Source: Lachnospiraceae bacterium (GTDB taxonomy: Bacteria; Bacillota; Clostridia; Lachnospirales; Lachnospiraceae). Taken from it: a DNA stretch of 38,089 nt. A model generated the notes under the pieces. That model searched no databases. It had not been told where the DNA came from and saw only the letters and a list, made by a program, of their open reading frames with translations. A program made the position numbers and the translations under genes. The stretch spans positions 1 to 38,089 of the forward strand of contig JAFUKH010000098.1 in NCBI GenBank assembly GCA_017467845.1, given 5' to 3'. Of this stretch, positions 1-15,600 are shown one piece after another. The stretch's first letter is position 1. Each line of letters starts with the position of its first letter.

Positions 1-277
1 GTTCCAGCAAAGTCTTGACCAGATGATGGATACAAAGAAATTCGGAAGTGCGGATAATGCAGATGCACTGAAGAAGAATCTGTCTAAGCTGATTCTCTGC
101 GTAGAGATGGAAAACTGGGAAAAGGCAGAAAGCTTTATGGAAGGTATCAGGCAGCTGACGGAGGATGCACCAAGAGAAGTAAAGACATCAGTGCTAAAGC
201 TGAAGATGTCTGTGCAGAAGGAAGATTACGATAAGACAATGGCAGCATATGAGGCTTTTTTGGAGCTTTTGCAGTGA
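1..277 (+). CDS. C-terminal end of an Hpt-like helical signalling protein (5' partial)
   Basis: The reading frame is open from base 2 with no stop before the first in-frame ATG at 23, so the true start most likely lies left of the window. The visible part, about 91 residues, is all helical and charged and has no membrane segment. A stretch around NWEKAESFMEGIRQL resembles the helix of Hpt domains that carries the phospho-acceptor histidine, but no histidine is present: the usual HxLKG reads EGIRQ by eye. The same helical pattern recurs in the last 80 or so residues of the kinase at 7876-10629 and in the small protein at 17488-17823. It may therefore be the tail of another hybrid kinase, or of a response regulator with a pseudo-Hpt module. 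The gene ends 19 bases before the next start and is probably co-transcribed with it. Specific function is not known. Confidence 0.6.
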   Translation, partial: FQQSLDQMMDTKKFGSADNADALKKNLSKLILCVEMENWEKAESFMEGIRQLTEDAPREVKTSVLKLKMSVQKEDYDKTMAAYEAFLELLQ

Positions 278-296
278 TACCAATGAGGGATTTGCA

Positions 297-1355
297 ATGG
301 AAATGAGTTTACCACGCGTCATGATTGTGGATGACGTAGAAGCCAACAGGTTTATTCTAAAAAATATTATTGAGACAATGGAATGTCAGCCGATTCTGGC
401 GGAGAATGGCATTCAGGCACTGAAAATTGTGCAGAAGCTGATGCCTTCTTTGATACTTTTGGATGTAGCCATGCCGGAGATGGATGGCTATGAATTTTGT
501 AAGATTATGAAGGGGAATCCTGCTACCAGAAATATTCCCATTATCTTTATCTCTGCATATGATGAGCCTAAGGATATTGTAAGGGGATTTGAACTTGGAA
601 GTGAAGATTACATCACTAAGCCCTTTATTCCCGAGGTGGTTAAGGCCAGAGTAGGTGTTCATTTAAAGCTTCATAATGCTACAAAGGATTTGCTGGATAT
701 GAATCGAAAGCTGACAGCTTCTGTAACAGAGCAGCTAAGGCAGATTGAGCAGGAGAAGAAAAATGTTCTTTATGCAATCGCCAATGTGGCCAGAGAGAAT
801 TCCAGCTATGAAGAGGCTCATATGGAGCGTCTGGGACACAATTGTAGTATCTTGGCACAGGCAATGCAGTTGTCTGCATCCTATGAACATTTGATTTCTG
901 ACAGTTATGTGGAGACAATCCGGGTGGCATCACCTTTGTGTGATACCGGTAATCTGGTGGTTCCCAGAGATATTTTACAGAAGAACTCGGCTCTTACTCC
1001 GGAAGAAGTGGAGATTATGCGTACCCATACCACTGCGGGAGCTAAGATGTTCCGGGATATTAATGCCGGCGGCGATTATAATGACTTTATGTCCATGTGT
1101 ATTGATATTGCACAGAGCCACCATGAGAACTGGGATGGAAGCGGTTATCCGGAAGGACTAAAGGGAGATGCTATTCCGATTTCGGCGCAGATTGTGGCAA
1201 TTATGAGTGCGTATTGTGCACTTACAGAGATTCGTACATATCGTGATCCCTTCTCTAAGGAGCAGGCATTAGAGATTTTAGAGCAGGATGCGGGAAGAAA
1301 GTTTAATCCGGAGATTTGTGCAATCTGCAAGAAGATTTCAAGGCAATTACAATAG
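297..1355 (+). CDS. Response regulator with a degenerate HD-GYP domain
   Basis: This is a 352-residue cytoplasmic protein. Residues 7-120 form a receiver domain with the acidic pair VDD, phospho-acceptor Asp56 (LLDVAMPEMDG) and Lys108 (ITKPF). A short coiled linker leads to an HD-GYP domain at about 160-345. HD-GYP proteins normally hydrolyse cyclic di-GMP using a metal centre. Here the HD motif HDIGK reads CDTGN (residues 215-219), and the later DxxDAL motif reads SAYCAL (304-309). His175, His244, HHE 275-277 and GYP 283-285 remain. Loss of the HD histidine and of a metal-ligand aspartate suggests a catalytically dead or altered domain. I chose ATG 297 because GAGGGA lies 6 bases upstream; an in-frame ATG at 249 has no such site and falls inside the previous gene. 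Its place just ahead of cheR suggests a role in chemotaxis or motility control. Confidence 0.88.
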   Translation: MEMSLPRVMIVDDVEANRFILKNIIETMECQPILAENGIQALKIVQKLMPSLILLDVAMPEMDGYEFCKIMKGNPATRNIPIIFISAYDEPKDIVRGFELGSEDYITKPFIPEVVKARVGVHLKLHNATKDLLDMNRKLTASVTEQLRQIEQEKKNVLYAIANVARENSSYEEAHMERLGHNCSILAQAMQLSASYEHLISDSYVETIRVASPLCDTGNLVVPRDILQKNSALTPEEVEIMRTHTTAGAKMFRDINAGGDYNDFMSMCIDIAQSHHENWDGSGYPEGLKGDAIPISAQIVAIMSAYCALTEIRTYRDPFSKEQALEILEQDAGRKFNPEICAICKKISRQLQ

Positions 1356-1369
1356 AGCTAGAGGTTATC

Positions 1370-2182
1370 ATGACAGAAGAGGAATTTTATCGGATTTATA
1401 CATTTCTGAAAAATCGTTACGGAATCGACATGAGCCGGAAGAAGGAAATTATAAAAGGCCGATTGGAGAATTATGTAAAAAATCATGGCTTTGAGGATTA
1501 TCACTCCTATATGAATGCAGTGGAAGCAGATAAAACCGGTGAAATGGAAAAAAAGCTGGTGGATATGTTGACCACAAATCATACCTATTTTATGCGGGAG
1601 TCGGAGCATTTTGACTATCTGCGCAAGGAGGTGCTTCCTTATCTGAAGAAGAAGGAAGAGAAAAATAAAGACTTGCGAATATGGTGTGGAGCGGCATCCA
1701 CAGGAGAAGAACCCTATACCTTGGCTATGTTGCTTATGGATTTTCTGGGTCTGGAAAAAGAGCAGTGGGATACCCAGATATTGGCGACGGATATCTCAAC
1801 AGAGGTATTGACCCATGCTATGCAGGGGATATATACAAAGGAGCAAGCAGAACCTCTTCCGGAGCACTTTAAACGAAGATTTTTTAAGAATCTGCCGGAT
1901 GGAGAGCATGTGAAGGTGACAGACGAGCTAAAGAGTGAAGTTCTTTACCGGAAATTCAATCTGATGGATCCGTTTCCTTTCCGCAGAAGGCTGCATGTGA
2001 TTTTTTTAAGAAATGTCATGATTTACTTTGATGACAAAACAAAAACAAAAATTTTACAAAAGGTATACGATGCTCTGGAACCGGGGGGATACCTTTTTAT
2101 AGGACGTACCGAGACCGTGGACCGAAACGTAGTTCCGTTTGAACTGGTACAGGCGTCTATTTTTCGTAAACGGGAGGTTTAG
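1370..2182 (+). CDS. cheR: Chemotaxis protein methyltransferase CheR
   Basis: CheR methylates specific glutamates of chemoreceptors with S-adenosylmethionine, giving the adaptation memory of chemotaxis. The 270-residue protein has the short helical N-terminal domain, then TTNHTYFMRE, the SAM-binding stretch LRIWCGAASTGEEPYTLAM, and LRNVMIYFD, which corresponds to the usual CRNVxIYF. It ends with the GGYLFIGRTE strand typical of the family, and its length is normal. The start is ATG 1370, preceded by AGAGG with about 5 bases of spacing. An upstream in-frame ATG at 1316 would lie inside the preceding gene and lacks a ribosome binding site. The cheB gene follows 3 bases after the stop. The methylation/demethylation pair being adjacent fits a standard adaptation module. 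Confidence 0.96.
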   Translation: MTEEEFYRIYTFLKNRYGIDMSRKKEIIKGRLENYVKNHGFEDYHSYMNAVEADKTGEMEKKLVDMLTTNHTYFMRESEHFDYLRKEVLPYLKKKEEKNKDLRIWCGAASTGEEPYTLAMLLMDFLGLEKEQWDTQILATDISTEVLTHAMQGIYTKEQAEPLPEHFKRRFFKNLPDGEHVKVTDELKSEVLYRKFNLMDPFPFRRRLHVIFLRNVMIYFDDKTKTKILQKVYDALEPGGYLFIGRTETVDRNVVPFELVQASIFRKREV

Positions 2183-2185
2183 AAA

Positions 2186-3220
2186 TTGCGGCAAATCAGA
2201 GTATTAGTAGTTGAAGACTCTATGGTATTTCGGGAGCTTTTGGTGCAGGCACTTAATAAAGACCCTGCAATTACGGTTGTGGCAACTGCCAAGGACCCCT
2301 TTGAAGCAAGGGATGCCATTATAACCTATAAGCCGGATGTTATGACCTTGGATATTGAGCTTCCGAAGATGTCCGGACTTGAATTTTTGAAGAAGCTGAT
2401 GCCTCAGTATCCCCTTCCGGTGGTAGTTATCAGTTCCCTTAGTGATAAGGTATTTGATGCGATGAATGCCGGAGCAGTGGATTTTGTGGCGAAGCCTCAG
2501 ATGACTGACAGGCAGCAGTTATCCGTACTCCTTAATAATGAGTTACCCATTAAGATCAAGATTGCATCTACGGCGCGAATCAGCAATATTAAGAATGCCC
2601 TGGGAGCCGCAGATTTAAAGAAAACGGTATCGAAAAAGGATGGCGTGTCTATCGTAGCTATCGGTGCCTCCACAGGAGGAACCGAGGCCCTTACCACAGT
2701 GATAAAGGAGTTTGGTCCGGATATTCCGGGAACGGTGGTGGTGCAGCATATGCCGGCAGGATTTACGGCTATGTTTGCAAATCGTTTGAATGACGTAAGC
2801 AGGGTAATGGTAAAAGAAGCGAAAAATGGCGATAAGATAGTGCCGGGGCAGGTACTGATTGCACCCGGAGGTGATGAGCAGATGCGGATAAAGCGTGTGG
2901 GAGAAGACATCCAGGTGGAGATTAAGAAAGGACCTAAAGTAAATGGTCATTGTCCGTCGGTGGATGTGCTCTTTGATTCTGTGGCATCTGTGGCTGAGGA
3001 TAGTGCCATCGGTATTATTCTTACCGGAATGGGTGGCGACGGTGCCAAGGGACTGTTGGCCATGCGCAAGGCCGGGGCGGTAACCATTGGCCAGGACGAA
3101 TCTACATGTGTGGTGTACGGAATGCCCAAGGTGGCATATGAAATGGGAGCGGTGCAATATCAGGACAAGCTTACGGATATTGGGAAAAGAACCTATTCCG
3201 TTTTGGGAAAACTAAAATAG
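2186..3220 (+). CDS. cheB: Chemotaxis methylesterase/deamidase CheB
   Basis: CheB removes receptor methyl groups, opposing CheR, and is switched on when CheA phosphorylates its receiver. The 344-residue protein has an N-terminal receiver domain (about 1-120) with the ED pair, Asp56 (TLDIELPKMSG) and VAKP. A linker leads to the esterase domain from about 153. The catalytic triad is visible: Ser162 in GASTGGT, His188 in VQHMP and Asp285 in GMGGDGAKG. The start codon is TTG at 2186, supported by GGGAGG about 8 bases upstream; no ATG or GTG start fits as well. It is tightly packed between cheR and the cheY-like gene. Nothing appears broken or truncated. Confidence 0.97.
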   Translation: MRQIRVLVVEDSMVFRELLVQALNKDPAITVVATAKDPFEARDAIITYKPDVMTLDIELPKMSGLEFLKKLMPQYPLPVVVISSLSDKVFDAMNAGAVDFVAKPQMTDRQQLSVLLNNELPIKIKIASTARISNIKNALGAADLKKTVSKKDGVSIVAIGASTGGTEALTTVIKEFGPDIPGTVVVQHMPAGFTAMFANRLNDVSRVMVKEAKNGDKIVPGQVLIAPGGDEQMRIKRVGEDIQVEIKKGPKVNGHCPSVDVLFDSVASVAEDSAIGIILTGMGGDGAKGLLAMRKAGAVTIGQDESTCVVYGMPKVAYEMGAVQYQDKLTDIGKRTYSVLGKLK

Positions 3221-3246
3221 TATAATATGTTATAGGAGGATAATAT

Positions 3247-3639
3247 ATGAGGATTCTATTAGCGGAAGACGATTTCGTCACAAGAAAGTTTATGACAAAC
3301 TTTTTGTCTAAGTACGGGGAATGTGATGTGACCGTAGATGGCATGGAGGCCGTGGACGCATTCATGATGGCATTGGAAGAGGGAGACCCATACGATTTGG
3401 TATGTCTTGATATTATGATGCCGGTTATGGATGGTTATCAAGCTCTGGTGGGAATTCGTAATCTGGAAAAGGAGCGAAATATTCCGGCGGAGAAGGCTGC
3501 GAAGGTTATTATGGCTACGGCACTGAATGAGGAGAAAAATGTTAAGATGGCATTTGATCTTGGTTGTACCGTATATTCAGGAAAGCCAATCGACCAGGAC
3601 CGCTTTGAACAGGCGATGAAAAAATTGGGACTAATTTAG
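3247..3639 (+). CDS. Single-domain response regulator, CheY-like
   Basis: This 130-residue protein is a receiver domain and nothing else. It shows the acidic cluster AEDD near the N-terminus, phospho-acceptor Asp55 in VCLDIMMPVMDG, a conserved small hydroxyl residue in MATALNE and the lysine in SGKPID. With cheB on one side and cheA on the other, it is most likely the diffusible regulator phosphorylated by CheA that acts on the flagellar switch, that is CheY. A receiver with another partner cannot be excluded, because stand-alone receivers look alike. The start ATG has a perfect AGGAGGA site 6 bases upstream. Confidence 0.9.
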   Translation: MRILLAEDDFVTRKFMTNFLSKYGECDVTVDGMEAVDAFMMALEEGDPYDLVCLDIMMPVMDGYQALVGIRNLEKERNIPAEKAAKVIMATALNEEKNVKMAFDLGCTVYSGKPIDQDRFEQAMKKLGLI

Positions 3640-3672
3640 CAAAATACTAGATGGCGGGGAAAGGAGCAGCAA

Positions 3673-5829
3673 ATGGCCGAAGAGTTCAATACAGAGAGCA
3701 TGCTGGACATGTATCTCTTTGAAAACACACAATTACTCGAACGGCTTCAGGAGATCGTTTTGGAGCAGAAGGATGAAGAGTGCTTTGATGAAGACAGTAT
3801 CAATGAAATCTTCCGTTCTATGCATACCATAAAGGGGTCTTCGGGCATTATGATGTTCGATGAGATTACGACAGTATCTCATAAGTTAGAGGATGTATTC
3901 TTCTATCTCAGAGAGTCTCATCCGGACAATGTACCGCATATTACGTTGGTGGAATATGTTCTGGAAGTGTCTGATTTCATTATGGGAGAAATGGACAAAT
4001 TACAGAATGGCGAGTCTGCAGACGGAAGCAGTGCAGATTTGGTTGCCCGAATTGATGATTTCCTGAAATCTATTAAGGGAGAAGATAAGGGAAGCAAAGG
4101 CAAGAAGAAAGAAGAGCCGGCAAAGGCGCCGGAGGCAGCACCGCCGATGCAGTTTTATATTGCACCGATGGCAACGGCGGCAAGTCATTTTTACAAGATT
4201 TATATCACTTTTACGCCGGGGACTGATTTAGTAAATGTGCACGCGTATAAAATCGTATTTGGATTGAAGGATATTGCGGAGGATTTACTTCATTATCCGG
4301 AGGACATTATTTCCGATGAGAGCAGTGCCCAGGAAATCTTAGACAATGGATTTAAGATGCTTCTGCAATCTCAGAGCAGTGAGGAAGAAATCCGTAAGTT
4401 AATAGGCATCGGTTACGATGTACAGAAGGTAGACATTTATGAATGTACCGCTGCGGAGTATCAGCAGGGCTTTGACTCTGTGGGAAGTGAAATCCGTATC
4501 GATTTAGAATCCAGTGTAGAAGAGATTCAGGCGAAGGCCAAGGAAGCGGAAAAGGTAAAAGAGGAAGCGAAACCTATTGCTCCCGGTGATTTCGTTATTC
4601 AGACCAAGGAACCCGGTAAGGTGAAGAAGCTTGCCAAGGACAAGCCTAAGAAAGCAGAAAAGACCAGCTATATCAGTGTGGATGTGGCGAAGATGGATAT
4701 GCTGATGGATTTAATCGGTGAGCTTGTTATTTCCGAATCTGTAGTATTGCAGAATCCTGACTTGAAGGTACCGGGCTTAAAACTGGATAACTTCAATAAG
4801 GCAGCGCAGCAGATGTCGAAGATTTCTACGGATTTGCAGAATGTGATTATGGCAATGCGAATGGTGCCTCTTACAAACACATTCCAGAAGATGAACCGTA
4901 TCGTATTCGATGTTTCCAGAAAGCTGGGCAAAGATATTGATTTTGAAATGATTGGTGACACCACGGAAGTTGATAAGAATATTATTGAACATATTTCAGA
5001 TCCTCTGATGCATATGGTTCGAAATGCGGTTGACCACGGTATTGAATCCAAGGAAGATCGTGTGAAGGCGGGGAAACCGGAGAGAGGAAAGGTTACTCTT
5101 TCAGCTAAGACAGAGTCCGGTAAGGTATGGATTGTTGTAACAGATAATGGTGCCGGACTGAATCGTGAGAAGATTATGGCAAAGGCAAGACGTCAGGGAC
5201 TATTAGAACCGGGCAAAATGGAAAGCAGCTATACCGACAAGGAAGTATTCCAGTTTATTACGCTTCCGGGATTTTCCACCAATGAAAAGGTTACGGAATA
5301 TTCCGGACGTGGTGTAGGTATGGACGTAGTAATGCAGAATATCCAGTCTATCGGTGGTACTTTAGAAATTGAAAGTACCTATGGACAGGGCTCCAGCATG
5401 ATTATGAAGATTCCTCTTACCCTTGCAATTATTGACGGTATCGTTATGGAAGTTGGTTCCTCCACCTTTGTAATAGAGACCGGAGTAGTCAAAGAGTTTA
5501 TCAGGGTAAGCAAGAGCATGATGCTTCAGGAACCAAACGGCAGTGAGTGCGTAATGATTCGTGGAGAGTGCTATCCGGTACTCAGACTCGGTGAGTGGTA
5601 CAATCTTAAGGAGTACCGCAAGGATGTGGAAGAGGGCATGATGCTGATTCTTGATATTGACGGCAGGAAGATGTGTCTCTTTGTAGACCATCTGGTAGGT
5701 AAGCAGGAAATCGTAGTTAAGCCCATTCCTAACTATATTAAGAAGGTTAAGGGAATGTCCGGTTGTACACAGCTGGGCGATGGAAGTATTGCACTTATTT
5801 TAGATCCGGCAGGATTAGTAGACTTATAG
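3673..5829 (+). CDS. cheA: Chemotaxis histidine kinase CheA
   Basis: CheA is the kinase of the receptor array; it autophosphorylates and passes phosphate to CheY and CheB. The 718-residue protein keeps the usual order. The P1 Hpt domain carries the phosphorylated His51 in MHTIKGSSG. A ferredoxin-like P2 region lies at about 155-265, followed by a Lys/Glu-rich linker. The P3 dimerisation helices begin near 325. The P4 ATPase domain has MVRNAVDHGIE, VTDNGAGL and GRGVGMDVV. The P5 CheW-like domain forms the last 140 residues or so. Length is in the normal range. AAGGAG sits 6 bases before the ATG. The gene lies between the cheY-like gene and cheW, as expected for one polycistronic message. Confidence 0.97.
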   Translation: MAEEFNTESMLDMYLFENTQLLERLQEIVLEQKDEECFDEDSINEIFRSMHTIKGSSGIMMFDEITTVSHKLEDVFFYLRESHPDNVPHITLVEYVLEVSDFIMGEMDKLQNGESADGSSADLVARIDDFLKSIKGEDKGSKGKKKEEPAKAPEAAPPMQFYIAPMATAASHFYKIYITFTPGTDLVNVHAYKIVFGLKDIAEDLLHYPEDIISDESSAQEILDNGFKMLLQSQSSEEEIRKLIGIGYDVQKVDIYECTAAEYQQGFDSVGSEIRIDLESSVEEIQAKAKEAEKVKEEAKPIAPGDFVIQTKEPGKVKKLAKDKPKKAEKTSYISVDVAKMDMLMDLIGELVISESVVLQNPDLKVPGLKLDNFNKAAQQMSKISTDLQNVIMAMRMVPLTNTFQKMNRIVFDVSRKLGKDIDFEMIGDTTEVDKNIIEHISDPLMHMVRNAVDHGIESKEDRVKAGKPERGKVTLSAKTESGKVWIVVTDNGAGLNREKIMAKARRQGLLEPGKMESSYTDKEVFQFITLPGFSTNEKVTEYSGRGVGMDVVMQNIQSIGGTLEIESTYGQGSSMIMKIPLTLAIIDGIVMEVGSSTFVIETGVVKEFIRVSKSMMLQEPNGSECVMIRGECYPVLRLGEWYNLKEYRKDVEEGMMLILDIDGRKMCLFVDHLVGKQEIVVKPIPNYIKKVKGMSGCTQLGDGSIALILDPAGLVDL

Positions 5830-5845
5830 AGAAAGGATTGCGGGT

Positions 5846-6415
5846 ATGGATATTTCAAAAGATGCGATGCCCATAGCGGATGAGTCCCAGGAATCGCTTT
5901 TTTCACAGCTTGGTAAATATGTAACATTCAAGTCCGGTAACGAGTATTTCGGTATCAAGATTGAATACGTAAATGAGATTATTGTATTACAGGAGATTAC
6001 GGTTATTCCGGAAAGTGTAGATTACATTAAAGGACTCATTAATTTAAGAGGTAAGATTATTCCGGTAATCGATGTGCGTCTGCGTTTCAAACAGGAGCCA
6101 TTTGAGTACAATGACAGAACCTGTGTAATTATCATTAAACTTAATGATATGACCGTTGGATTAATCGTAGAGCAGATTGCAGAGGTGGTAGAGATTAAAG
6201 AAGATAATATTCTTCCATCACCCTCCTTTGGACATGCAGATACTTCTAAGAATAAGTATGTGTATGGTATTGGTAAGGTGGGAGAAGAAGTAAAGCTTCT
6301 GTTAGATCCGGATAAGTTATTGAATGACAAGGATGTTGATATTATTGAATCATTGACGGATGAGGACAATGAACAGTCAGAGGATGCTAAGGGCGATTCC
6401 AAGGAGGATAAATAG
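5846..6415 (+). CDS. cheW: Chemotaxis adaptor protein CheW
   Basis: CheW couples chemoreceptors to CheA in the signalling array. Residues about 20-165 make one CheW domain, with characteristic stretches such as [30 protein letters not shown] and [11 protein letters not shown]. The final 30 residues are strongly acidic and look disordered; they extend beyond the usual CheW end. The gene starts 16 bases after cheA, with an AGAAAGG site. Its own 3' end contains the AAGGAGG used by the chemoreceptor gene two bases downstream. This implies coupled translation of adaptor and receptor. Confidence 0.96.
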
Positions 6416-6417
6416 AA

Positions 6418-7788
6418 ATGGGCAATAAAAAGAGAAATTATTTTCAAAATATATCACTTAGTAAGGGACTTACGATTGGATTTCTGATAACAGGACTTTT
6501 GTTTTTTGCAGCATTAGCATTGGGATATAGAGCATGTGCGGAAATTACCACTGTGTCAAATCCGGAAAAATGGTTATGGAGCTACCAGATTTTTGTGGTT
6601 GTAATGCTTGTTATTAACAGTGTGGTGACAACAGGACTCAGACAGATTGTTACAGGTATGTTAAAGAGTGCTTCTGAAGAAGTAACGCGTGTGGCAAATC
6701 AGGTTGCAGAAGGTAATGTGGATATTGAGGTTGCTGATATAGGTAAGAATGAATTCGGTGATATTCTATCTAATTTACAGGCAATTATTGATAATATTAA
6801 GCTTCAGGCAGGCGTGATCACTGAGCTTTCCCAAGGTGATTATACAATGAATGTAACTCCTAAGAATGACAATGATATGCTTGGTAATTCATTAAAGAGA
6901 CTGGTTGAGGGTAATAGAAATACTCTTACCGATATCCGTGATGCGGCATATCAGGTAACAACCAGCTCTTCCCAGGTGGCAAGTGCATCCGAAGCTTTGG
7001 CACAGGGCTCTACCGAGCAGGCAAGTGCCATTGAAGAGATTACCGCATCCATTACCGAAATTGCAGAAAAGACCGCTAAGAATGCAGTAGAAGCAAACAC
7101 CGCCGCAGAGCTTGTGGGTACTGCAATTGCGGATGTAAGACGCGGAAATGCAGAGATGCAGGAAATGATGAAGGCTATGGATGACATCAACAAAGCATCT
7201 GAGAGCATCAGCAAGATTATTAAGGTTATTGATGACATTGCATTCCAGACCAATATTTTAGCATTAAATGCAGCTGTGGAAGCAGCAAGAGCAGGGGATG
7301 CAGGTAAGGGCTTTGCAGTAGTTGCAGAAGAGGTTCGTAATCTGGCAGCAAAGAGTGCAGCAGCAGCGCAGGAAACAGCAGAACTTATCGAGAATTCTAT
7401 TGCTAAGGTTGGCGTTGGTTCTAAGATTGCGGATGGTACCTTTAAGGCTCTTGAGCAGATTACCAATGCTGTATCTGAAAGTGAAAGTATTATTACCGGT
7501 ATTGCGGAAGCTTCCAATTATCAGGCAACTGCAGTGGCACAGATTACTCAGGCCATCGGTCAGGTATCTCAGGTTGTTCAGACCAATTCAGCAACTAGTG
7601 AGCAGTGTGCAGCAGCAAGTGAAGAACTTTCAAATCAGGCTGCTATGATGCGTGAGTTAATCAGCGTCTATAAGCTTGGGAATGATGTACCTTTGAAGGC
7701 AAAAAAGGCAAGAAAAGAACGTGTGATTATGGCAGGTAATGCCAACGAGCAGATTATTTCTTTAGGCGAAGGCTTTGGAAAGTACTAA
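6418..7788 (+). CDS. Methyl-accepting chemotaxis protein with minimal sensory loop
   Basis: This 456-residue chemoreceptor has two membrane segments, about residues 17-37 and 56-74, separated by only about 18 residues. There is thus no room for an extracytoplasmic ligand-binding domain. One or two HAMP-like regions follow (about 75-170), then a long helical methylation/signalling region. The conserved hairpin tip is [20 protein letters not shown] with [13 protein letters not shown] after it. No C-terminal CheR/CheB-binding pentapeptide of the enterobacterial type is seen; the protein ends GEGFGKY. It is the last gene of the chemotaxis operon, since a strong terminator follows. Receptors of this build may sense membrane state, energy level or a partner protein, but the signal cannot be read from sequence. 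Confidence 0.95.
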
Positions 7789-7875: not shown

Positions 7876-10629
7876 GTGAACATAGGATATGGCTCAAAAG
7901 AAAAGAATATGGCGATGGAACGAACCATCATTCTGGCAGATACTGTGTATGATTTCGGAATGTTGTTTGTTGCCTACAAATATGAATGGGGCTTGGGAAT
8001 GCTTACCTTTATCCTCTGCGGAATACTGATGTGCTGGATTGTACATGTAACTCAGTTTAAGTCCTATAAGTTCCGGGCATACTGGGTTGCAGGAATCATG
8101 CAGATTTTCGTAGCAATTTTCTCTATCCGCATGGAGACTATGTTGGGAGTTACGGCTACTTTTATGACGTTGACTATATTGATCGGATTGTTTGCTATTC
8201 CCCAGCTGATGTTTTTGCCTGCTGCAAACCTGACCATTTTAATGTTTTACCATGCGGCACATCATACCACCATGTATGACGGTGGTGAGGCGGATGTGGC
8301 CAGATCGATACTGATGTATGGTAGTATTTATGCCACCATTTTTATTGTTTACTGTTTTATCAAGACCCAGCTTGCCAGTCAGCACTATCTTCGTGCTACC
8401 ATTGAAGAACTCAGAGAAGCGGAGCGCAGTAAGACGGATTTCCTTGCCAATGTCAGTCATGAAATTCGTACCCCTATTAATACTATCTGCGGTATGAGTG
8501 AAGTGACGCTGAGAGAGGAACTTCCCCAGAAGGTAAAAGACAGTCTTTTTGATATTCAGACTGCAGGACGGAATCTTCAGTCCGTAGTGAGTGATATCTT
8601 AGATTTCTCAGAGCTTGACAGTGGTAAAATGGAAGTAGTGGAGGAGGTATATAACATAACCTCTACCATCAATGATATCATCAATCTGGCGGTAGCCCGT
8701 AAGAGCGAAAAGGATATTGAGTTGATTGTAGATTGTGACAGTAATATACCAGGTGGCCTTTTAGGCGACGAACAGAAGCTTCGAAGAGTGATTATGAATT
8801 TGATGGATAATGCAATCAAATTCACTAATGAAGGCTGCATTACCATCGGGATTACTGCACGAAAAGAGGCTTATGGCGTAAACTTGTGCGTAACCATTAG
8901 AGATACCGGAATAGGTATGAAACCGGAGAATCTGGAGAAGCTTTTCGCCAGTTTCAGTCAGGTGGATTCTAAGAGAAACCGTGCTGCCGGTGGTGTGGGA
9001 CTTGGACTGGCCATATCCAAAGCATTGGTACAGAAAATGGGTGGTTTTATAACTTTGCAGAGTGAATATGGCAAAGGAAGTGAGATTAAATTTGTTATTC
9101 CTCAGAAGGTTGTGGATGAAACTCCGATAGTCAGCTTAAAGAATCCCGAGAAGCTGCGCATGGCGATATATATCAATATGGAGCAGTTCGGCTATGAAAC
9201 CATTCGTGATGAGTACACCAATTATATTATTCATATGGTGACCCAGAATGGGGTGTCCTGTCATATGTCACGTAATCTGGCGGAACTAAAGCGTCGTATT
9301 GAGAGAGAGAGCTTTACCCATGTCTTTATTACAGATGTAGAGTATTGGGAAGACAGAGAGTATTTTGACCGACTTGCAGAAACTACCAAGCTGATTGTTG
9401 CTATGGACAGGCAGGATGATGTGGATATCAATAATCCGAAATTGCACAAGCTTTATAAACCATTTTATGTTGTGCCTATCGTAATGTTCCTGAACGAAGA
9501 ACTTGACCACAAATCTATTACTGAAGGCATGGTGCGAAAAGAGCATTTTGTGGCACCGGAGGCAAAGATTCTGGTAGTAGATGACAGTCCGATGAATATC
9601 CGTGTGATTCAGGGGCTTTTAAAGCCGTATCAGGTGCAGATTGATACCGCTCTCAGCGGTTTTGAAGCAATAGATAAGGTGGATACCAATGTATATGACT
9701 TTATTTTTATGGATCATATGATGCCGGAAATGGATGGAATCGAGGCGCTTCACAGAATTCGTCGTAAGCCGGGAAACTATTTCAAGACGGTTCCGATTAT
9801 TGCCCTGACCGCCAATGCCATCGCCGGTATGCGTGAGAAATTTATGTCAGAGGGCTTTAATGATTTTGTGGCAAAGCCGGTATCCCTGTCTGTGCTGGAG
9901 CGTGTACTGTTACGAACCCTTCCTAAGGAAAAGGTTCAGCGAGTGGTGGAATTTGTCAAAGAGGAAAGTGTGGCCGTAAAGGCGAAAGAATCGGAAGCTA
10001 TAAAAGAAGAGCCGGGTTTTAAGCTGGGTGACTTGGATGTGGAGAGCGGAATTACTTATTGCGGAACACTGGAAAGTTATATTGATATCTTAAAGCTTCA
10101 TGCAGAAGAAGATGAAGAGAATATGAAGCTGATTGCAGATTTGTTTGAGCAAAAGGATTATAAGAATTACTCTATTCAGGTACATGCATTAAAGAGTGGA
10201 ATGAAGAGTATTGGTGCTACCAAGCTTTCTAAATTGGCCATGAAGCTGGAGAAAGCATCAAAAGAAGGTGACTACAATTATGTTCTGGAGCATCATGGTG
10301 AAATGATGATGGAGTATGAGCGGATTATCGATTTGCTTACCGGGGATGAGAGGCTGGTAAGCGTAGGTGAGCTTTCAGAGGAAATTCTTAATCTAAGAGA
10401 AATCGGAGAGGAAGATCTTAACAAGCTGTATAAGGATTTCGAGGATGCGGTATTTACTTTTGAGCGGAACAAGGTACTTACGTCACTTAAAGCATTTGAT
10501 GAATGCAGTTATAAGGGTACGTCCCTGAAACAGCATTTAGCCATTGTATATAAGAAAGCGGATATGCTGGATTATATGTCAGCATTGGATATGGCACTTA
10601 AGCTTAAGGAGGAACTCACCCATGCGTGA
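7876..10629 (+). CDS. Membrane hybrid histidine kinase with pseudo-receiver, receiver and Hpt domains
   Basis: This 917-residue kinase begins with about five membrane segments (residues 25-165) and very short loops, so it has no large external sensor. The phospho-acceptor helix has His195 in NVSHEIRTPINT. The ATPase domain shows DNAIKFTNEG, RDTGIGM and GVGLGLAISK. Residues about 425-545 resemble a receiver that lacks the N-terminal acidic pair. A full receiver follows (VVDDSP, Asp613 in FMDHMMPEMDG, Lys667), then an Hpt domain with His770 in QVHALKSGMKS. The last 90 residues or so form another helical module without an obvious acceptor histidine. The start is GTG 7876, with CGGAGG 6 bases upstream; an ATG at 7909 is less well placed. 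The Hpt domain implies a phosphorelay to a separate regulator, perhaps encoded elsewhere. It overlaps the next kinase gene by 8 bases. Confidence 0.93.
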   Translation: MNIGYGSKEKNMAMERTIILADTVYDFGMLFVAYKYEWGLGMLTFILCGILMCWIVHVTQFKSYKFRAYWVAGIMQIFVAIFSIRMETMLGVTATFMTLTILIGLFAIPQLMFLPAANLTILMFYHAAHHTTMYDGGEADVARSILMYGSIYATIFIVYCFIKTQLASQHYLRATIEELREAERSKTDFLANVSHEIRTPINTICGMSEVTLREELPQKVKDSLFDIQTAGRNLQSVVSDILDFSELDSGKMEVVEEVYNITSTINDIINLAVARKSEKDIELIVDCDSNIPGGLLGDEQKLRRVIMNLMDNAIKFTNEGCITIGITARKEAYGVNLCVTIRDTGIGMKPENLEKLFASFSQVDSKRNRAAGGVGLGLAISKALVQKMGGFITLQSEYGKGSEIKFVIPQKVVDETPIVSLKNPEKLRMAIYINMEQFGYETIRDEYTNYIIHMVTQNGVSCHMSRNLAELKRRIERESFTHVFITDVEYWEDREYFDRLAETTKLIVAMDRQDDVDINNPKLHKLYKPFYVVPIVMFLNEELDHKSITEGMVRKEHFVAPEAKILVVDDSPMNIRVIQGLLKPYQVQIDTALSGFEAIDKVDTNVYDFIFMDHMMPEMDGIEALHRIRRKPGNYFKTVPIIALTANAIAGMREKFMSEGFNDFVAKPVSLSVLERVLLRTLPKEKVQRVVEFVKEESVAVKAKESEAIKEEPGFKLGDLDVESGITYCGTLESYIDILKLHAEEDEENMKLIADLFEQKDYKNYSIQVHALKSGMKSIGATKLSKLAMKLEKASKEGDYNYVLEHHGEMMMEYERIIDLLTGDERLVSVGELSEEILNLREIGEEDLNKLYKDFEDAVFTFERNKVLTSLKAFDECSYKGTSLKQHLAIVYKKADMLDYMSALDMALKLKEELTHA

Positions 10630-13291
10630 GAAAATAGTGAGATTACTACAAGGGGAAAATAAGGATATCAAGGAGAGGTTATTCCGAATTATTATTATGG
10701 TGGCGACAGCTGCCGGAATAGTGGGATTAATCGAGGGAATTACAGTAAATACTTCTATGGAGTATTATGTGGTTTTGGGAGGACTATTGGTTATACTTGC
10801 AGTTTCTCTGATTCTGGTATTTAAATACAATAGGATACATGCGGCATCATGGCTTCTTGGTATTTTTATTATTGTATTTGCTTTTCCGTTTGTTTTCCTT
10901 TATAGCGGTGCATTGGAAAGTGGTGCATCCATCTGGTTTGTACTCTCCATTTATTACTTGTTTTTGATGTTCAGAGGAAAAGAATTGGTCTTTTTCCTGG
11001 TGTTAGCTGCGGTTGTAAACGGAATAACTTATTACATAACCTATTCCCATCCGGAGATTGTGCATCTTCTGGATTCCAGATTTGCCGGTTATTTTGATTC
11101 TTATTTTTCCGTAATGGTAGTAGGAATTTCGTTAGGTGTGTTATCCAAGTTCCAGCAGAGTGTGTATGATAAAGAGAGGCAGATTAATGAAAAGCAGAAA
11201 GCGGAGCTGGAAGCATTAAGTGTTTCCAAGGATACCTTTTTTGCCAGTATGAGCCACGAGCTTAGAACTCCTATTAATACGATTATTGGTCTCAATGAGA
11301 TGATTCTTCGCGAGGAAACCAGTGATGAGGTTAGGGAGAATGCCGAGAATGTAAGAAATGCCGGTAAGATGCTTTTATCTCTGGTAAATGATATTCTGGA
11401 TATTTCTCAGATGGAAACCCATAGAATGAAGATTGTATCGGTGAATTATGATCTTTCCGTTTTGGTTAGGGAGCTGGTAGACATGATAGCTGTTCCACTG
11501 AAGGAGAAGGAACTGGAATTCCGTCTGGAGGTGGAAGAGGATCTGCCAAGAGTACTTTATGGTGATGAGAAGCGTATAAAGCAGGTATTGATTAATTTAC
11601 TGACCAATGCAGTCAAATACACCAAGGAGGGCAGGGTTACCCTTACCGTAAAGGGGGAGCCGGTGGAAGGAGATAAGCTTCACCTATCCTTTTCCGTAAC
11701 AGATACAGGAATCGGTATCAGAAAAGAGAATCTGGCGTATCTGTATGATTCCTTCCGCAGGTTTGATCAGGGAAGTAATGCTAAGATTGAAGGTACCGGT
11801 CTTGGACTTGCCATTTCCAAACAGCTATTGGATTTAATGGGCGGCGAAATCAAGGTGGACAGTATCTATACCAAAGGATCCGTTTTTACAGTGACTTTGG
11901 ATCAGGCAATTGTGGAAAGAGAACCGGTAGGAAAGATTAAAACAGACAATATCGCCAAAGCGGCAAATGCAAGATATACACAGAGTTTTGAGGCACCGGA
12001 AGCAAGAATTCTGGTAGTGGATGATTCCAGCATGAACCTGACGGTAGTAAGGAAGCTTCTTAGAAGCACTAAGGTGAATGTGGATGTTGCCCAGAGCGGT
12101 GAAGATTGTCTGAAGATGACAAAGCAGAAGTTTTATCATGTGATTTTACTGGACCACTATATGAGTCCCATGGATGATGTAGAAACACTGAAGGGTATCC
12201 GTAAGCAGGAAAACGGGCTTTGTAGAGAGGTTCCCGTGATTGCAGTAACTGCTAATTTTTCTGTGGATAGTGAAAAGGCTTATCAGGAGCTGGGATTTGA
12301 TGATTATCTAACTAAGCCCATTGAAAGTGCAGTTATGGAAGAGAAGATTTTAAGCTATCTTCCGGAGGATATTATTGAGTACAGACGTTCCGATAATGTG
12401 GATTTGGCTCAGGAAAATAACATGGAAATGTTAAACAGCAGGAGACGCAAGCGTGTGCGTATTACATCAGACTGTTTTTGTGATATCAATAAGGGACTAC
12501 TTGAGAAATACGATATACATCTGGCATATGCGTATATTAAGACTGCAACAGGACGCTTTAAGGATACCCTGGAAATTGATGTGGACAGTATTTCCAAGTA
12601 TTCCAGAACCATTACGGATATTGCAGTACCGGAAGCCGTTCCTGTGGAGGAGTATGAGGGCTTTTTTGCAGATATGCTTACCGAGGCAGAAGAGATTATA
12701 CATATTTCCATCGCATCCGGAATCAGCAAGAGCTATGAACATGCCACAAAGGCTGCCAGTGGGTACGGACATGTGCATGTAATTGATTCGCAGCAGTTTT
12801 CCTGTGGCCTGGGACTGCTGACTCTTTCGGCAGCGCAGCTTGCTATGGAGCGTAAGAGTGTGGATGAAATTTGTAAGGAGATAGAATACTTAAAGACAAA
12901 GGTGAAGAGTCACTTCCTTACACCATCTCACAGAGCATTGATTCAAAAAGGCTTTGGTAACAATATTATAAATATGCTTTGTGAAAAACTGGCACTTCAT
13001 CCGGAGGTATGCATTGTCAATAATCGTCTGCAGGTACAGGGGCTTAGAAGCGGAGATATTGATACTGCCAGAAGGCGTTTTATCAGAAAGCATTTGTTTA
13101 TGAGAAAACACATTGATTCAGAAGTAATTTATATTGCTCAGGCAGGTATCTCAGTGAAGGAGCAGGAGTTTGTTGTTTCTGAGGTTCAAAAGAGTATCAA
13201 CTTCGAGCGTATGATTTTACAAGGTGCATCCGTATCCAATACCAGTATCGGTGGTGTCGGTACGGTGGGTATTGCGTACTTTTTAAGATAA
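10622..13291 (+). CDS. Hybrid histidine kinase fused to a DegV-like (fatty-acid-binding) domain
   Basis: This 889-residue protein has six likely membrane segments in residues 21-175. A kinase core follows, with His212 in SMSHELRTPINT, TNAVKYTKEG, VTDTGIGI and GTGLGLAISK. A receiver (about 460-580) has VVDDSS, Asp511 in LLDHYMSPMDD and Lys565. Residues about 611-889 then match the DegV fold in order: RITSDCFCDI (usual ITDSTADL), EEYEGFFADM, IIHISIASGISKSYEHA (usual SSxLSGTYQSA), VHVIDSQQFSCGLG, and the ending GVGTVGIAYF (usual HTGPGALGIAF). That span is the length of a complete DegV protein. The fatty-acid-contacting TSxPS, GGR and His of HTGPG are not preserved by eye. ATG 10622 has AAGGAGG 9 bases upstream; an earlier in-frame ATG (10544) would overlap deeply. 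It lies between the other hybrid kinase and the glycan-lyase-like gene. Confidence 0.88.
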   Translation: MREKIVRLLQGENKDIKERLFRIIIMVATAAGIVGLIEGITVNTSMEYYVVLGGLLVILAVSLILVFKYNRIHAASWLLGIFIIVFAFPFVFLYSGALESGASIWFVLSIYYLFLMFRGKELVFFLVLAAVVNGITYYITYSHPEIVHLLDSRFAGYFDSYFSVMVVGISLGVLSKFQQSVYDKERQINEKQKAELEALSVSKDTFFASMSHELRTPINTIIGLNEMILREETSDEVRENAENVRNAGKMLLSLVNDILDISQMETHRMKIVSVNYDLSVLVRELVDMIAVPLKEKELEFRLEVEEDLPRVLYGDEKRIKQVLINLLTNAVKYTKEGRVTLTVKGEPVEGDKLHLSFSVTDTGIGIRKENLAYLYDSFRRFDQGSNAKIEGTGLGLAISKQLLDLMGGEIKVDSIYTKGSVFTVTLDQAIVEREPVGKIKTDNIAKAANARYTQSFEAPEARILVVDDSSMNLTVVRKLLRSTKVNVDVAQSGEDCLKMTKQKFYHVILLDHYMSPMDDVETLKGIRKQENGLCREVPVIAVTANFSVDSEKAYQELGFDDYLTKPIESAVMEEKILSYLPEDIIEYRRSDNVDLAQENNMEMLNSRRRKRVRITSDCFCDINKGLLEKYDIHLAYAYIKTATGRFKDTLEIDVDSISKYSRTITDIAVPEAVPVEEYEGFFADMLTEAEEIIHISIASGISKSYEHATKAASGYGHVHVIDSQQFSCGLGLLTLSAAQLAMERKSVDEICKEIEYLKTKVKSHFLTPSHRALIQKGFGNNIINMLCEKLALHPEVCIVNNRLQVQGLRSGDIDTARRRFIRKHLFMRKHIDSEVIYIAQAGISVKEQEFVVSEVQKSINFERMILQGASVSNTSIGGVGTVGIAYFLR

Positions 13292-13314
13292 AACTGACTA
13301 TCAAGGAGATGACC

Positions 13315-15600
13315 ATGAATATTACATTCCCCAAATTATATCGCTATGACAGAATTCGTGAGCATGCTTATGTGGCAATTCCTTTTAAGATGGGAGAACT
13401 GCAAAGTGAACAAAAAGCACAAATCTGGGACGGGGATATCTTACTTCCTACACAAAATAAAGTTACCTCTTATCATAAGGACGGAAGTATCCGATATTTA
13501 TTTGTAAGATTTATGGCTGACCTGCCGGCGAATCACAAGAAACAGCTGGAGATGAAAATAGGCGATGAGAAAAACTGTGAAGTGCAGGGGATTAAGATTT
13601 TAAAAAAGGAAGATGAACTTGAAGTGCATGGCGGAGTGGAATTCGCTGTGAAGGATGATTCAGAGAACTTGTTTGAATATGTAAAAGTGGCAGAGAAAGC
13701 ATATCGGGCAAAGCAGTTTGTAGGTCCGGTGCTGGTAGATGGTGATGATTGCTGCTACCAGACAAAGCTGGGAGCTTGGGAGCTGGAAGAAGAGGGGCCT
13801 CTTGTGACTATTCTTTCCTGCATGGGCAAGTGTGTGGGCAATAGGGACATTTCATTTCAGATGCGGGTTATCTGTTATGCGGAAAAGCCATGGCTGGAAA
13901 TTAGCTATCGGATTATTAATACAACCACGGATCCTCTTCATGTAAAGTCGCTGGTATTTGGAATTCTTTCTGAGGAGGAGGGCGTATTTTCTCCTATGCT
14001 TAAGAAGGACGATTTTAAGGGAGATTATCATACTGTAGGAATCAAAGAGCTTCCGGAAATCGAGAAGGAAATTACCGGAGTGCGCACCTGTGTGGGAAGT
14101 TCCAATTATAAGACAGATTTCATTATTGGAAAAGATGGAAAATCTGTGGAGAAATATGTGGATGCTGAGATGCTTTTGAAGGAAGCAAATGAGCACTTCT
14201 TTGAGGTATTTTATGGAACCTTCTTCGCAGACAGAACAGATGAGAATGGTGGTATCTGTGCTACTATTTTTCAGGCACAGCAGAATTATCCAAAGGCAGT
14301 AAAGGCGGACGTGAGTGGAATTTATGTAATGCTGGTTCCGGAGAATGTAGGTAAGATTGTAATGCAGCCGGGAATGTCCAGAGAACAGCGCTTTTTGTTA
14401 CATTTTCATGATGCGGCAGAGACTTTGACAGAGCTGGATAACAGAAGTCTGATCTACCAGATGCCGGACAAGCCCTTTATTTCACCCGAGGTATTTGCGA
14501 AGGCTGATGTGATGCCGGATATCTTTGTGGCACCGGAGAGGGTTAACCAAGAGGTGGAGCTTGCGTTGATTGCAAGATGTGACGGTCATGGCAGGGCTAT
14601 GGGTATGTTAAACTTTGGTGATGCACCGGATGCCAATTATACCTCTCAGGGACGAGGAAACGGCAAGCTGGTCTGGTCAAATAATGAATATGATTTCCCA
14701 CATGCATGTGCACTGCAATATGCGCGTACGGGAGAGAGACGATTTTTAGATTATCTGATTGCATCTGCAAGACATTGGATGGATGTGGATGTGTGTCATT
14801 ATAGTGATAATCCTCTTCATGTAGGAGGACAGTGGGAGCACTGTGCAAATCATTGTGGCATGGATATGGTGTGCTCTCATGAATGGGTGGAGGGTCTTTT
14901 GGACTATTATCATTTCACCGGAGAAAAAAGAGCATTTGACACAGCCATCGGAATCGGAGAAAATATATTAAGGTTGTTAGAGACTCCGACATATCAGGTG
15001 TCGGGGGAGAGTAACGCAAGAGAGACCGGCTGGGCGCTTCGAACGTTAACGGCTCTGTATGTGGAAACACATGATGAAAAATGGCTTGCGAAGGCAGATT
15101 GGATTATTTCCCACTTTAAGGAGTGGACCCGGGAATATGATGGCTGGATTGCACCCTATACAGATAATACATTGATTCGAGTGGGATTCATGATTTCTGT
15201 TGCAGCGGGAAGTCTGATGCGTTATTATAGAGTATTCCCGAATGAGGAGCTGAAAAAGATGCTGCTGGAAGCAGTGGATGATTTGATTGAAAATGGTATG
15301 CTGGGGAATGGGGTATTCTATTATAAAGAGCTTCCAAGCCTTAGCCGCATTGGAACGAATACACTTTTATTAGAGGCTCTTACCATTGGATACGAATTAA
15401 CCGGTGATACCGGATATTTGTCTTACGGAATGAATACCTTTAAGTCAAATATTAAGGCTATGCCGTCAGGTGCACCCGGAACGAAATCAATTGCAGAAGA
15501 TGCAGTGGTGTATAAGAATGCATCACCGAAAAATTTTGCACAGAGCTTTATACCACTTACGGTATTTTATAAAGCACTTACTGACCACGGGATGCTATAA
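13315..15600 (+). CDS. Predicted cytoplasmic carbohydrate-active enzyme, PcRGLX/YetA-like
   Basis: This 761-residue protein has no signal peptide or membrane segment. Its first 200 residues or so look like the RIFT-barrel N-terminal domain of the PcRGLX/YetA (exo-rhamnogalacturonan lyase-like) family. The supporting stretch is a strand-rich segment with DGDILLPTQNK and HKDGSIRYLFVRF. Residues about 400-755 are helical with repeated aromatic and His-rich motifs (FPHACALQYARTGERRF, GGQWEHCANHCG, ESNARETGWALRT), typical of an alpha/alpha-barrel found in polysaccharide lyases and glycosidases. Family assignment is from recalled patterns and is only moderately firm; another alpha/alpha-barrel glycoside hydrolase or lyase is possible. 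The start is ATG 13315 because AAGGAG (13303-13308) gives a 6-base spacer; it directly touches the other in-frame ATG at 13309. The 23-base gap from the DegV-kinase gene implies co-transcription and a possible shared trigger. Confidence 0.72.
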   Translation: MNITFPKLYRYDRIREHAYVAIPFKMGELQSEQKAQIWDGDILLPTQNKVTSYHKDGSIRYLFVRFMADLPANHKKQLEMKIGDEKNCEVQGIKILKKEDELEVHGGVEFAVKDDSENLFEYVKVAEKAYRAKQFVGPVLVDGDDCCYQTKLGAWELEEEGPLVTILSCMGKCVGNRDISFQMRVICYAEKPWLEISYRIINTTTDPLHVKSLVFGILSEEEGVFSPMLKKDDFKGDYHTVGIKELPEIEKEITGVRTCVGSSNYKTDFIIGKDGKSVEKYVDAEMLLKEANEHFFEVFYGTFFADRTDENGGICATIFQAQQNYPKAVKADVSGIYVMLVPENVGKIVMQPGMSREQRFLLHFHDAAETLTELDNRSLIYQMPDKPFISPEVFAKADVMPDIFVAPERVNQEVELALIARCDGHGRAMGMLNFGDAPDANYTSQGRGNGKLVWSNNEYDFPHACALQYARTGERRFLDYLIASARHWMDVDVCHYSDNPLHVGGQWEHCANHCGMDMVCSHEWVEGLLDYYHFTGEKRAFDTAIGIGENILRLLETPTYQVSGESNARETGWALRTLTALYVETHDEKWLAKADWIISHFKEWTREYDGWIAPYTDNTLIRVGFMISVAAGSLMRYYRVFPNEELKKMLLEAVDDLIENGMLGNGVFYYKELPSLSRIGTNTLLLEALTIGYELTGDTGYLSYGMNTFKSNIKAMPSGAPGTKSIAEDAVVYKNASPKNFAQSFIPLTVFYKALTDHGML

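Follow-up and report, generated by a model that had tools for sequence, protein, structure and literature searches.

A hybrid histidine kinase that carries a DegV-fold domain behind its receiver is encoded directly downstream of a second hybrid histidine kinase in a gut-type bacterium of the family Lachnospiraceae, and the two genes appear to form a conserved cassette in which an HK-REC-Hpt protein is followed by an HK-REC-DegV protein. We put the probability at about 0.55 that the pair functions as a two-kinase phosphorelay that shares one Hpt domain and contains a DegV-fold domain repurposed for regulation. The window, which is the whole stretch of DNA that was analysed, comprises 38,089 nucleotides (contig JAFUKH010000098.1 of assembly GCA_017467845.1).

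The fused gene (10622..13291, + strand) encodes 889 amino acids and overlaps the sister kinase gene by eight bases (10622-10629). Several hydrophobic segments at residues ~20-180 (10679..11161; limits set by eye), which include conserved Gly, Pro and Trp positions, form an N-terminal membrane region. This region is followed by Pfam matches to HisKA (residues 203-266, 11228..11419) with the phospho-acceptor His212, to HATPase_c (residues 314-428, 11561..11905) with Asn329, and to a receiver (residues 463-576, 12008..12349) with the phospho-acceptor Asp511 as well as Asp468 and Lys565. A linker (12350..12451) leads into the DegV domain (residues 611-889, 12452..13288). Reading frame, start and domains are as given in the preliminary description, which had proposed a membrane-bound hybrid histidine kinase with a full DegV-like domain after its receiver. 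The four domains are found in each of the 43 aligned fused proteins, a set of better-scoring matches and chosen outliers rather than a random sample, and His212, Asn329 and the three receiver residues are invariant in all of them, the window's protein included, as is required of hybrid histidine kinases. The motif MSPMDD in the window's receiver had been considered odd. It is indeed present, but the consensus of the 43 fused relatives is the usual MPxMDG, and this local change has been discarded as a functional clue. The distance from the Lys-Pro of the receiver to the start of DegV is 40-45 residues in 41 of the 43 proteins. The remaining two are permuted, with DegV preceding the second kinase, and both are encoded directly behind a sister gene (L070, 5808-10544, - strand, where the kinase has a dCache sensor and an Hpt domain; L074, 5431-8304, + strand). 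At two further loci the DegV frame is interrupted by a stop (L126, G342) or DegV and its kinase are in different frames (L077, G274); either case may be a real split or an assembly error. Compared with its counterpart in L036, a Lachnospiraceae MAG from roe deer colon with a 74% identical DegV domain, the window's gene has a dN/dS of ~0.1 at a dS near saturation, and purifying selection on the fused gene is indicated.

Profile searches with the C-terminal region, as had been proposed for checking the DegV assignment, gave significant matches. PF02645 is hit at 1.8e-23 (83.7 bits against a cut-off of 27) in an alignment limited to residues 612-794, and TIGR00762 spans the whole domain (model positions 2-275 of 276) with 92.4 bits, slightly below its cut-off of 99.7. 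Solved FakB/DegV chains are covered over their full length by a profile built from the 43 relatives (4x9x, E 2.8e-37), and this whole-domain match places the domain in the DegV/FakB family. AlphaFold models built from three sequences (window, L036 and L037) were poor, with mean pLDDT values of 43.1 and 44.7. All 38 PDB chains retrieved by Foldseek at E<=0.001 with the first, low-confidence model are DegV/FakB proteins; the superposition covers mainly the N-terminal half, and the two-domain structure itself is therefore unconfirmed. The high-Z families returned by VIA for this model are all EDD-fold relatives, a result that excludes nothing. The fold and many positions are conserved across the fused relatives. 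The DegV assignment is correct, and the fusion is common, conserved and under selection. The domain resembles FakB/DegV proteins such as FakB1 and FakB2 of S. aureus (PF02645, TIGR00762) in its full-length profile and Foldseek matches but differs from them in being fused to, or encoded beside, kinases and in the loss of the FakA-docking Arg and the carboxylate His.

The fusion is widespread in Lachnospiraceae, where a survey of the architecture had been suggested. The DegV domain as query gave matches in 183 of 397 genomes at E<=1e-10, and at least 92 matches, in at least 68 of the 397 genomes, lie in frames of 680 or more amino acids. In 398 genomes sampled across the phylum, frames of more than 600 amino acids were confined to Lachnospiraceae among the matches listed, most of the others being ~280-400 amino acids long and one 580. 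Restriction of the pair to one family was nevertheless dropped, because a class sample probed with a domain of the sister kinase (see below) gave matches in nine of 391 genomes, six from Lachnospiraceae and three from another family; in the latter, the pair was found at all three loci (three genomes of one genus), each time with a 4-base overlap. An 862-amino-acid protein at L120 (6790-9378, + strand) combines HATPase and DegV without a Pfam match to HisKA or a receiver and has no standard sister adjoining. The titles and abstract openings surveyed, with subscription papers and preprints outside this scope, contained no DegV-kinase fusion. Unfused DegV genes have been linked to hemolysin III genes in one report (PMC3146951).

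The sister kinase (7876..10629, + strand; 917 amino acids from the listed GTG) has the order HK, middle domain, REC and Hpt. The middle domain (residues 424-556, 9145..9543) lies between kinase and receiver and is receiver-like by position only; it is conserved, has no Pfam match and marks the kinase family well, and it was used as the marker for finding sisters. The directly upstream neighbour on the same strand best matches the window's sister kinase in 39 of the 42 fused genes not located at a contig edge. The exceptions are two copies at L064, whose neighbours are more similar to the fused protein than to the sister, and L076, where a 266-amino-acid piece is the direct neighbour and the sister comes next. 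L064 (10750-18592, - strand) carries two tandem fused HK-DegV genes behind one Hpt kinase without the middle domain. The gaps between the 42 fused genes and their upstream neighbours range from -86 to +42 bases, the value of -86 being that of the window if its alternative TTG start is used; with the ATG start, the overlap is eight bases. Strong matches to the middle-domain probe (E<1e-25) were found in ten of ten genomes with the fusion vs none of 40 control genomes, three of which had weak matches; the controls were chosen for having no long DegV frame, with a small but not nil chance of a wrong choice through unseen weak matches. Across Lachnospiraceae, the probe gave 101 matches in 76 of 397 genomes. 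A DegV match follows within 6 kb on the same strand, among the matches listed, in 88 of the 101 cases. In four of the other 13, a fused-type gene begins at the contig end; six are cut off by the contig boundary; and the remaining three (G372, G066 and G188) are clear exceptions, having a sister kinase without an adjoining DegV gene. Conversely, a sister match lies upstream of 82 of the 92 long DegV frames among the matches listed. The sister frame at L119 is broken by a stop. All 41 aligned sisters keep the kinase His and Asn and the receiver Asp and Lys.

The Hpt domain of the window's sister kinase (10096..10266, + strand; Pfam) contains the phospho-His motif HALKS and is the only one found in the window's pair. 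An Hpt domain with its His is present in 33 of 41 sisters. Seven others, of ~685 amino acids, stop after the receiver; the DegV partners of six of them carry an Hpt domain with its His beyond DegV, and the seventh partner is truncated by the contig end. In L076 the Hpt His is lost. An Hpt domain with its His is thus available to 39 pairs, 33 times in the sister and six times in the DegV protein, and exactly one Hpt domain was found in 39 of 41 pairs, in either gene; no pair was found with two. DegV had been said to occupy the place of the Hpt domain. The Hpt domain of the sister is confirmed, but the six proteins that carry Hpt after DegV, next to sisters without one, speak against such an equivalence, and replacement of Hpt by DegV has been rejected because these proteins have both. 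One Hpt domain per pair is what a shared relay would predict, and two parallel pathways could also be conceived.

Both membrane kinases, being encoded by overlapping or closely spaced genes, would most likely form one complex with the single shared Hpt domain. Phosphate may pass from the His of either kinase via a receiver and the shared Hpt domain to separate receiver proteins, presumably HD-GYP proteins, lone receivers or, in some operons, CheY. In the RcsC/RcsD phosphorelay, two membrane proteins share one common Hpt domain, and the kinase of RcsD has decayed. The pairs described here are similar in their single shared Hpt domain, but both kinases keep the residues that were checked, and a DegV domain is added. 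BarA, TorS and ArcB, the best NCBIfam models for the fused kinase although far below their cut-offs, share HisKA, HATPase and receiver with it; they differ in that here DegV stands instead of or before Hpt and two kinases lie side by side.

The DegV domain was probably an operon partner of the sister kinase before the fusion took place, since unfused DegV genes are found behind sister-type kinases and group with the fused proteins. In all four cases examined (L121-L124), such a gene immediately follows one for a sister-type kinase, with a spacing between a 13-base overlap and a 9-base gap. In a tree of 88 DegV domains, which contains some unfused genes in duplicate because loci overlap (L102-L108 and L109-L116), the 47 fused domains form one clade (99.7/100) that groups with the four unfused partners (99.4/100), the order among the four being weakly supported. 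The simplest history is probably that a FakB-like carrier began as an independently encoded partner of the Hpt kinase and subsequently became attached to a second kinase through a linker of nearly fixed length.

The residues that would be needed for a FakB-like function have been lost to different degrees. The FakB2 signature, which we take to consist of T61, S93, R170, R202 and H266, presumably includes Arg170 for activity and Arg202 for FakA binding. These positions were mapped with an offset of 20 from chain 4x9x and compared between the 43 fused and 24 unfused DegV proteins, the latter including two Asn-type proteins and two divergent proteins of the window's own genome, one of them truncated. 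For FakB1, PMC8892158 describes Thr62, Ser95, Ser171 and His270 as a network with the fatty-acid carboxylate and the variant R173A as inactive; a variant R205E lowered the apparent affinity for FakA (PMC9136124). The window's protein has P, S702, F778, S and I876 at the five positions and keeps only S93, so that neither the carboxylate network of Thr, Ser and His (here P, S and I) nor the pair of Arg170 and Arg202 (here F778 and S) is preserved. The docking Arg202 is found in two of 43 fused vs 20 of 24 unfused proteins, and His266 in one (Asn in 39) vs 20 of 24. Arg170 is retained in 20 of 43 vs 24 of 24, T/S61 in 31 of 43 vs 24 of 24 and S93 in 26 of 43 vs 24 of 24. In the four unfused partners, T/S61 and S93 are present, whereas Asn stands at 266 and Arg is absent from 202. 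Since the docking Arg and the carboxylate His are gone from nearly all 43 proteins, the entire lineage seems to be disconnected from the FakA pathway.

A further loss is concentrated in the window's branch, whose 15 members were picked by hand from a tree. T/S61 is kept in only three of these 15 vs all 28 other fused proteins, and S93 is replaced by Gly in 12 of 15 vs two of 28, being kept in 24 of the 28. Retention of T/S61 and mostly S93 makes some ligand binding possible outside the window's branch, where DegV may still accommodate an acyl or another hydrophobic ligand. Members of the window's branch have additionally lost most of the carboxylate site; here DegV may bind something else, ligand binding of another kind being possible, or only dock partners. 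A lipid reading, judged from these residues, is open for the other branches and weak for the window's protein. The proposed link between two-component signalling and fatty acids therefore survives in part: the connection of DegV to a receiver and a kinase is real, conserved and selected, but with one of five signature residues left, its interpretation in terms of lipids and FakA is unsupported for this protein.

As the fusion of DegV, receiver and kinase is conserved and under selection, a regulatory link is likely, and a regulatory role of DegV can be argued from its position and conservation. The DegV domain would act in the cytosol and shift the balance of the relay. We suggest, tentatively, that this whole DegV lineage left fatty-acid metabolism to become a dedicated regulator of a single family of sensor kinases, initially as a separately encoded partner and afterwards as a fused domain. 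The relay of two kinases and one Hpt domain may inform c-di-GMP enzymes of a lipid or other hydrophobic signal in the cell; in the window's branch, a chemotaxis operon would be a further recipient. A comparable protein is DhaQ of L. lactis (2iu4), which is likewise an EDD-fold relative of a kinase subunit turned regulator. The co-activator DhaQ has dihydroxyacetone as its ligand and targets a transcription factor rather than a kinase.

It is also possible, at a probability well short of even, that DegV is a ligand-free docking or dimerisation scaffold that holds the two kinases, or a kinase and its output, together. The nearly fixed linker length, the one specific sister kinase as partner and the loss of carboxylate-site residues, which is most complete in the window's branch as the home of the che-linked loci, would fit a scaffold; conservation of the fold and of many positions, together with T/S61, mostly S93 and in part R170 in the other branches, argues against it. 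A true fatty-acid sensor that uses the FakB carboxylate site is doubtful. T/S61 and S93 persist in the majority of fused proteins, and a lipid input into a two-component system has a precedent in S. aureus, where the fatty-acid pool affects SaeRS (PMC5539427, abstract). The effect is described as indirect, via free fatty acid levels, and the abstract mentions no DegV-kinase fusion. Against such a sensor, His266 has become Asn in 39 of 43 proteins, and T61, R170 and H266 are all changed in the window. Still less probable is an output function, in which phosphorylation of the receiver would control the capture or release of fatty acids by DegV and thereby feed FakA. DegV does have the position expected of an output domain, immediately behind the receiver, and the host genome encodes a FakA-like Dak2 protein. 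The Dak2 gene lies on another contig (C3), ~3 kb from an unfused DegV gene with all five FakB residues, and the docking and catalytic arginines are rare or reduced among the fused proteins and both absent in the window; for the window's protein, this model has been rejected on the loss of signature residues. The draft host genome is fragmented (105 contigs, 85.84% complete), and one could suspect an artefact or remnant, such as a fortuitous fusion or a domain in decay; this is refuted by the four domains common to all 43 examined relatives, the low dN/dS and the closely similar domain in L036.

For the favoured relay with a regulatory DegV domain, candidate outputs are encoded nearby. The window's pair is preceded on the + strand by a gene for a receiver-HD-GYP protein (249..1355), a candidate output with a degenerate HD metal motif, and, directly upstream of the pair, by cheR, cheB, a cheY-like gene, cheA, cheW and an MCP gene (1316..7788; Pfam). 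Hand counts over the 43 fused genes, with neighbours labelled by their best match to window proteins, gave cheA in the upstream same-strand run of ten and a receiver-bearing gene (HD-GYP, lone receiver or CheY) in that of 27. The HD metal motif is lost in five of 14 HD-GYP proteins of 330-480 amino acids (window, L037, L038, L045 and L053) and kept in nine. In the window's protein, LHD reads LCD and the later DxxDA is also lost; the same holds for four of 13 relatives, all from the window's branch. The five loci without the motif all fall into the branch whose DegV site is weakened, which points to a rewiring there, towards chemotaxis or protein binding. The window's MCP (6418-7788) has, by eye, two hydrophobic segments separated by no more than a short loop and lacks a Pfam sensor domain; it may receive its signal from the cell interior or from the kinase pair. 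The gene downstream of the pair (13309-15600) has a weak match to GH127 beta-L-arabinofuranosidase (6.6e-08) and is kept behind the pair in L036, with no match at the other loci compared.

The pairs are common in a large bacterial family and present a metabolic lipid-carrier fold that appears to have been recruited into two-component signalling, with an apparent intermediate, the separate partner gene, still visible. Pairs with a single Hpt domain in either gene would provide a natural test system for two hybrid kinases that share a relay. If the DegV domains outside the window's branch bind lipid, they would connect lipids directly, and in a way open to experiment, with signalling through c-di-GMP or chemotaxis.
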